NCBI GenBank assembly: GCA_030038655.1
Contig: JASHSP010000016.1
Coordinates: forward strand, 1-46,178
DNA: 46,178 nt
Direction of reading: 5' to 3'
Source of the DNA: Thermoplasmata archaeon
GTDB lineage: Archaea > Thermoplasmatota > Thermoplasmata > Lutacidiplasmatales > UBA184
Below the pieces are notes generated by a model. It was not told the DNA's origin, ran no database searches, and saw only the letters and a program-made list of their open reading frames with translations. A program made the translations under genes and the position numbers. Shown here in pieces: positions 22,164 to 23,196 of the stretch (position 1 is the first letter of the stretch; every line of letters begins with the position of its first letter).

Positions 22164-23036
22164 ATGACCCCCTCTCCCGGAGACGGGCCGGCCCTGTCGG
22201 GACCGGACCCGGACCGATCCCCGGCTTCGGTGCCGCTTCCGGTCGTGAACGCGACCAGCTCGTTCACCGAGGTGCGCCGGCCCGTCCTCGCGCGGGGCGA
22301 GCCCCCGGCGCCGCGAACGGTGGAGCGGGGCGTCGTGCTGTTCGACCTAGACGGCACGATCCTCGACGACCTGGCGCTCATCAGCCGCGTCGCGGCGGAC
22401 GTGATGCACTCGTCGTTCGGCACGCCCCCCGAGGAGGCGCGGCTCCACTATCTCGCGACGACGGGCATGCCGTTCGAGGCCCAGCTGTCGCAGCTGTACC
22501 CCGAAGCCCCCGCCGCGCTTCGCGCGTCGACCGCGCGCACGTTCCACCAGCGCAAGGTCGCCGAGGCGTACTCGCGGGCGGAGCCGTTCCCCGAGGTGCC
22601 GAAGCTGCTCAAGCGGCTCGCCGCCGCGCGGTGGACCCTTGCCGTGACCACCGGCGCCGAAACGGAGATGGCGGATCTGATCCTGGAGCGGGAGGGCCTT
22701 CGGTACTGGTTCGAGGATGTCCTCGGCTCCGCCGACGGGACCAAGCGAGAGCACCTCGCAGAGTACCGGCGCCGGTACCCCGGCGCCCCGGTCTATCTGG
22801 TCGGCGACTCCCGTTTCGACATGGAGGCCGCGCGAGACACGACGGGCGTCGTTCCGCTCGGTCGGGCGAGCCGGCTCCGCGACTGGGCGCTCACTCCCAG
22901 CGACCTCAAGGAATGGGGCGCCGCCTGGGCCGATTACGATCTCGCCGAGCTGCCGGAAGTGCTGGACCGCCTGGCGCGCCCGAAGGCATCGCGCCGGACC
23001 GGCGGCGCACGTCGCCCGTCTTCCCGACGACGGTAG
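22164..23036 (+). CDS. HAD-superfamily hydrolase with low-complexity N-terminal extension
   Basis: VVLFDLDGTILDD; TTGAETEM; YLVGDSRFDMEAAR; TTAAAG box ~27 nt upstream. Confidence 0.9.
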   Translation: MTPSPGDGPALSGPDPDRSPASVPLPVVNATSSFTEVRRPVLARGEPPAPRTVERGVVLFDLDGTILDDLALISRVAADVMHSSFGTPPEEARLHYLATTGMPFEAQLSQLYPEAPAALRASTARTFHQRKVAEAYSRAEPFPEVPKLLKRLAAARWTLAVTTGAETEMADLILEREGLRYWFEDVLGSADGTKREHLAEYRRRYPGAPVYLVGDSRFDMEAARDTTGVVPLGRASRLRDWALTPSDLKEWGAAWADYDLAELPEVLDRLARPKASRRTGGARRPSSRRR

Positions 23037-23143
23037 GGCCGGGACCGAGACTCTCCCGACCGGGGGGGATGCCCCCGGCCGATTTGAACCCGGGTCGAGG
23101 GATCCACAGTCCCCCAGGATAACCAAGCTACCCCATCCCGGCC
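23037..23143 (-). tRNA. tRNA-His(GTG), with G-1 encoded and interrupted by a ~32-nt intron in the T-arm (intron approx. 23049..23080, ambiguous by 2 nt)
   Basis: Minus strand GGCCGGGATGGGGTAGCTTGGTTATCCTGGGGGACTGTGGATCCCTCGACCCGGGTTCAAATC[intron]TCGGTCCCGGCC; acceptor GCCGGGA/TCCCGGC 7/7 pairs, G-1:C73, anticodon loop CTGTGGA, T-stem CCGGG/CTCGG forms only after removing 32 nt. Confidence 0.9.
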
Positions 23144-23196
23144 ACGCCGGTCGGACGCACGGCCCCGAAGAAAAACTTTGCCGCGCGGCCGAGGAG

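Follow-up and report, generated by a model that had tools for sequence, protein, structure and literature searches.

A T-loop intron in the tRNA-His(GTG) gene of a Lutacidiplasmatales archaeon and its putative bulge-helix-bulge motif

How could a normal tRNA-His be obtained from a gene whose T-loop is interrupted by 32 nucleotides, and which enzyme would remove the insert in a host that belongs to the Thermoplasmatota and not to a Thermoproteales-type lineage? The gene lies in a stretch of 46,178 nucleotides (the window) from the MAG G000, a member of the Lutacidiplasmatales, Thermoplasmatota from acidic soils (PMC9287336). An earlier note on the window had proposed a T-arm intron in tRNA-His, and this was borne out: the spliced form is called by ARAGORN and orthologous introns occur in the genus. 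The intron lies in a functional-looking tRNA-His(GTG) gene, the only one detected in this Thermoplasmatota MAG, and, beyond what the note had described, the genome contains about a dozen T-loop introns, of which this is one. We consider it very probable (roughly 0.85), judging from sequence comparisons, that the gene is interrupted by a vertically inherited archaeal bulge-helix-bulge (BHB) intron at T-loop position 59/60, which would be removed by EndA, with RtcB joining the exons.

Anatomy and conservation of the tRNA-His(GTG) locus

The precursor gene can be read directly on the minus strand (23037..23143), from G-1 (23143) to C73 (23037). It consists of the 5' exon GGCCGGGATGGGGTAGCTTGGTTATCCTGGGGGACTGTGGATCCCTCGACCCGGGTTCAAA (23083..23143; G-1 to A59), the 32-nt intron TCGGCCGGGGGCATCCCCCCCGGTCGGGAGAG (23051..23082) and the 3' exon TCTCGGTCCCGGCC (23037..23050; T60 to C73). 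The outer parts joined together make a complete tRNA-His(GTG) with G-1 opposite C73, the acceptor stem GCCGGGA/TCCCGGC (7/7), T8, the anticodon GTG and the T-stem CCGGG/CTCGG with one G-U pair, the 5' strand of which (49-53) occupies 23089..23093 and the 3' strand (61-65) 23045..23049. All the parts that had been described as canonical are thus present. The anticodon arm is intact and the insertion is located at 59/60, not at the canonical intron site 37/38.

In the scan of the window, the unspliced locus yielded no gene with ARAGORN and no Rfam hit at threshold because the unspliced T-loop intron defeats both; RF00005 scored 18.7 bits on it. In contrast, the spliced form was called tRNA-His(gtg) by ARAGORN. 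When a T-stem of 5/5, an acceptor stem of 7/7 and T8 were required as fixed rules, this gene was the sole match in the window. Twenty Markov-1 random windows gave 0.30 matches each, none scoring like the tRNA-His locus, and a chance match is excluded by this comparison. The model R1 matched the window at 23045-23093 with 61.5 bits.

The insert was found in every same-genus tRNA-His that was read across its 3' part and also in family members from sister genera. Eight of the 61 same-genus genomes searched, all eight 59-85% complete, gave no tRNA-His match, and one match ran off a contig end. Over 87 loci, identity is 96.1% for the exons (the 5' exon is near-invariant in relatives and the 3' exon is kept), 68.2% for the introns and 50.6% for shuffled introns. 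A convergent HAD-like ORF (22164..23036, plus strand; family named by inspection) is a syntenic neighbour, adjoining the tRNA-His gene in 38 of the 39 other loci tested by tblastn. An AT-rich box (aaagttttt; 23171..23179, minus strand) at about -28 to -36 is likely to be a TATA element; in the A+T profile of the 87 loci, most positions from -36 to -28 reach 0.82-1.00 and those further upstream are mostly below 0.4.

The low completeness of the MAG (1.5 Mb, only 81% complete, 134 contigs) might suggest that the locus is a pseudogene or an assembly artefact and that a working tRNA-His lies in the ~19% that the assembly lacks. This is extremely improbable, given that the exons are conserved on either side of the insert and that a corresponding intron-bearing copy occurs in a 100%-complete relative, in other >90%-complete ones and in dozens of independent assemblies. 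The artefact by which the note thought its proposal might fail is thereby dismissed. A second, intact tRNA-His, the other objection that it had raised, was detected neither in the 81%-complete MAG nor in the complete sister genome G028.

Two genomes of the same order (G061, G063) have a tRNA-His (L083, L084) with an anticodon-loop intron and no T-loop intron. Lutacidiplasmatales-type tRNA-His genes with the T-loop intron were also met in two GTDB MAGs titled 'bacterium' (L141, L187), and these titles look wrong.

The splice junction and the bulge-helix-bulge structure

From the window by itself, the position of the cut is ambiguous over a shared TC. In the relatives, any of the four bases can stand directly 3' of TTCAAA, the insert is followed by TC(T/C)CGG, and every one of the 121 distinct sequences has T at position 60. 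Because the relatives vary just after AAA and keep T60, the intron was placed at 59/60, 23051-23082 (TCGGCC...GAGAG), and TTCAAA / intron / T60 is the simplest reading of the junction. The excised segment originally suggested, GGCC...GAGTC with a cut after C61, lies two bases too far downstream.

In the predicted precursor, the T-stem would serve as the outer helix of the BHB, the exon nucleotides T54 T55 C56 R57 would pair with intron positions -3 to -6, and the 3-nt bulges would be formed by A58 A59|i1 and N N|T60, the remaining intron folding as a hairpin. The consensus of the central helix is TTCR on the exon strand and YGAR on the intron strand. In the window (minus strand), T54-A59 correspond to 23083..23088, with TTCA as the exon strand and A58-A59 starting the 5' bulge, whereas the intron strand (-6 to -3, GGAG) is found at 23053..23056 and the intron stem is made up of CGGCCGGGGG (23072..23081) and CCCCCGGTCG (23057..23066). 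Clean flanking helices, which the earlier note had failed to find, are present: the central helix is flanked by the T-stem and the 10-bp intron stem. The note's candidate for the central helix, GCCG/CGGT, was rejected, as it lies inside the intron stem and belongs to the hairpin of the intron itself.

The structure tested (T-stem, 4-bp central helix, 3-nt bulge, 10-bp intron stem, 3-nt bulge) was paired in 91.4% of cells in a gap-free alignment of twenty-five 49-nt T-arms, and its covariation was 0.604 as against 0.186 +/- 0.020 for shuffled and at most 0.182 for slid versions. Changes on both sides were found at all 10 pairs of the intron stem and at 3/5 pairs of the T-stem, which is 100% paired in the alignment (A1). 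Among the 121 sequences, T54, T55 and C56 pair with intron -3, -4 and -5 in 94-100%. G57 meets C(-6) in 15/15 cases and A57 meets C in 0/106, its partner being T in 52, G in 52 and A in 2; non-His tRNAs alone gave the same picture (G57-C 15/15 versus A57-C 0/20).

A fourth central pair is thus supplied by G57-C or A57-T in 67/121 sequences. An exact 3-4-3 BHB is the predicted fold of two isoacceptors unrelated to each other, Arg(TCG) and Gly(TCC) (L232, L249), and at the level of the family two 3-nt bulges, a 4-bp central helix and flanking helices are all found. The window's own intron has three of the four central pairs and an A57-G mismatch, equivalent to a 3-bp helix with an AAA bulge. About half of the introns, this one included, are without the fourth central pair (A57-G in 52/121), so that the motif departs from the strictly canonical form. 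With RNAfold, only 12/121 minimum-energy structures contain the complete 4-bp central helix.

The T-loop is required for the elbow of tRNA. A tRNA-His that retains the insert and works with an enlarged, structured T-loop is therefore hard to accept, although the intron hairpin is well folded throughout (mean z -2.64), as a retained element might be. The partners of T54-R57 co-vary as a BHB demands, unrelated isoacceptors carry the insert at one identical point, and families without it have an ordinary tRNA-His. Retention of the insert seems quite unlikely to us, and removal of a BHB intron is the reading followed below.

Splicing enzymes and comparison with known systems

The genome has one EndA gene, a single ORF with two PF01974 domains, and an RtcB ligase gene. 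Most of the EndA sequence aligns with the A. fulgidus alpha'2 enzyme, and the catalytic half gives a near gap-free alignment with M. jannaschii EndA. The catalytic residues Y270, H278 and K309, identical throughout an alignment of 25 sequences, are confined to the C-terminal half. The AlphaFold model (pLDDT 92.9) has its best structural matches in the M. kandleri and A. fulgidus enzymes, with TM 0.77-0.84 to the latter. By its sequence layout and predicted fold, EndA is one alpha'2-type chain. No CSL-type insertion was found in comparison with the CSL chimera 3p1y; the spacing from YG to LSLIE is 8 residues, as in M. jannaschii and A. fulgidus, and 18 in 3p1y. The protein does not correspond to an (alpha beta)2 or epsilon2 enzyme with CSL/ASL, the ASL being judged via the overall fold only. 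The relaxed-specificity endonuclease considered in the earlier note was not found, EndA being an alpha'2-type enzyme in one chain that lacks a CSL-type loop. Such an endonuclease is probably unnecessary, though the BHB of the window contains the A57-G mismatch.

From the anatomy of the precursor and from archaeal tRNA splicing in general, we infer that the gene is transcribed, that the alpha'2-type EndA would suffice to cut both bulges and that RtcB would ligate A59 with T60, so that a normal tRNA-His results. The homodimeric EndA of Ferroplasma (Thermoplasmatales) cuts a minimal BHB at 30 C (PMC8707768), which makes cleavage in the lineage of the window plausible.

Position 59/60 is on the list of known non-canonical sites, chiefly from Crenarchaeota and Nanoarchaeota, and in Euryarchaeota with alpha4/alpha2 enzymes the canonical position is given as the only one that carries introns (PMC4090602). 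Reviews credit alpha4/alpha'2 Euryarchaeota with few introns and connect non-canonical ones with the special loop of (alpha beta)2 or epsilon2 enzymes (PMC4090602; PMC4033280; PMC6379350). The alpha'2 enzymes are described as limited to the canonical BHB (PMC12397907), and Korarchaeum is the only archaeon described with an alpha2 EndA and non-canonical introns, for which a special loop is credited (PMC4033280). We see even odds that, in this euryarchaeal-type lineage, a strict-class alpha'2 EndA without a specificity loop processes T-loop 59/60 introns that are conserved and genome-wide, about half of them with an imperfect central helix, the universal TTCRA supplying one half of the BHB and a hot spot of insertion. 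If true, this would break the accepted rule by which alpha'2 enzymes without the loop accompany canonical-position introns only.

Alternatively, an alpha'2 EndA alone might be insufficient and its specificity broadened, for instance by a partner protein or by a segment of its N-terminal half, such that the A57-G and 3-bp forms would be cut as well. In the EndA alignment A2, such a segment (RGG...KTP...SER; residues 84-107 of L111) is common to the whole class and absent from A. fulgidus. The 52/121 introns with A57-G favour this explanation, for the literature presents alpha'2 enzymes as strict (PMC12397907; PMC4033280), yet the A57-G motif is not strictly canonical. However, relatives that gave no match to the T-loop model (e.g. 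G061, G063) have the RGG...KTP segment as well, and EndA has no CSL-like insertion. We regard a broadened enzyme as a tentative alternative to cleavage by the alpha'2-type EndA as such.

The introns resemble those of Crenarchaeota and Nanoarchaeota (PMC4090602) in the site 59/60, the BHB at the junction, the presence in several isoacceptors and the occurrence of D-loop and multiple introns per genome, but differ in the Thermoplasmatota host, in an alpha'2 EndA without CSL rather than an (alpha beta)2 enzyme and in showing no sign of recent transposition. With the canonical 37/38 introns of Euryarchaeota, a kind that G061 and G063 have in tRNA-His, they share the 3-4-3 BHB plan and the alpha4/alpha'2 class of EndA, whereas the T-loop site and T54-R57 as the exon strand are different. 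Korarchaeum cryptofilum likewise combines a homodimer-type EndA, a state assigned here by layout only, with non-canonical introns; unlike the enzyme studied here, the korarchaeal EndA reportedly has a specific loop (PMC4033280). In the Asgard Atabeyarchaeia and Freyarchaeia, 92-95% of the tRNA genes have introns, often non-canonical (PMC11291895). These are similarly genome-wide and outside Thermoproteales, but the phylum is unrelated and no single shared T-loop position was found described for them.

No report of T-loop introns in Lutacidiplasmatales was found in the open-access literature, and the word 'intron' is absent from the founding paper (PMC9287336). The introns as such belong to a known kind; no description was found that combines this host, this enzyme and a systemic T-loop position. 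The lineage appears as a large, conserved exception to the pairing of enzyme and intron position given in reviews. It makes testable whether position or motif is the constraint and whether a BHB with A57-G needs a special enzyme.

The genome-wide set and its taxonomic spread

Twelve tRNAs with a 59/60 intron (25-38 nt) were read in G000, namely His, Ser-GCT, Ser-GGA, Ser-CGA, Asn, Gly-TCC, Arg-TCT, Arg-TCG, Gln-CTG, Ala-GGC, Asp and Leu-TAG. The complete sister genome G028 gave 13, adding Lys-TTT and Glu-CTC (Leu-TAG was outside the G028 reading), and the same-genus genome G017 gave 12. One type of intron in ~14 isoacceptors may be explained by the near-universal TTCRA of T-loops, which would supply half of the motif in any tRNA; each tRNA would offer a ready-made half-BHB and the site could be a hot spot of insertion.

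Intron identity is 65.7% for the same tRNA across genomes, 58.4% for different tRNAs in one genome and 58.3% for different tRNAs across genomes. Introns of the same tRNA are more alike across genomes than those of different tRNAs within one, and the set therefore looks inherited, not recently spread. Recent transposition among tRNAs was rejected, as the within-genome identity equals that across genomes.

Of the 121 T-loop-intron genes, ARAGORN called 53 unspliced and 119 spliced. Many tRNAs in these MAGs score under common detection thresholds, and 'missing tRNAs' may be hidden in this way. The archaeal mode of tRNAscan-SE 2.0, used in PMC9287336, may already list some such tRNAs.

In the class, 171 of 400 genomes match R1 at E <= 0.01. 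The home family accounts for 95 of these (seven genera, 3-12 matches each), and 76 genomes outside it have mostly 1-5 each. A separate draw from the phylum gave matches in 31/243 genomes at E <= 0.001. The E-values are rough, and a few weak matches may be due to chance. Spot reading confirmed T-loop introns for many other families, where tRNA-Lys(TTT) was often the gene affected.

Some further introns were noticed. In G062, of the same order and with eight R1 matches, T-loop introns of 13-14 nt occur together with similarly short anticodon-loop introns (L312, L318, L323). Apparent D-loop introns were seen in Lutacidiplasmatales in initiator Met-CAT (L230, L254) and Arg-GCG (L227, L262, L279), and apparently together with T-loop introns in Lys-TTT (L271) and Leu-TAG (L029). 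A probable tRNA-Trp(CCA) of G028 (L269) has a long anticodon-loop intron. The tRNA-Lys(TTT) genes L302 (G204) and L298 (G121) read as triple-interrupted, in the D-loop, the anticodon loop and the T-loop.
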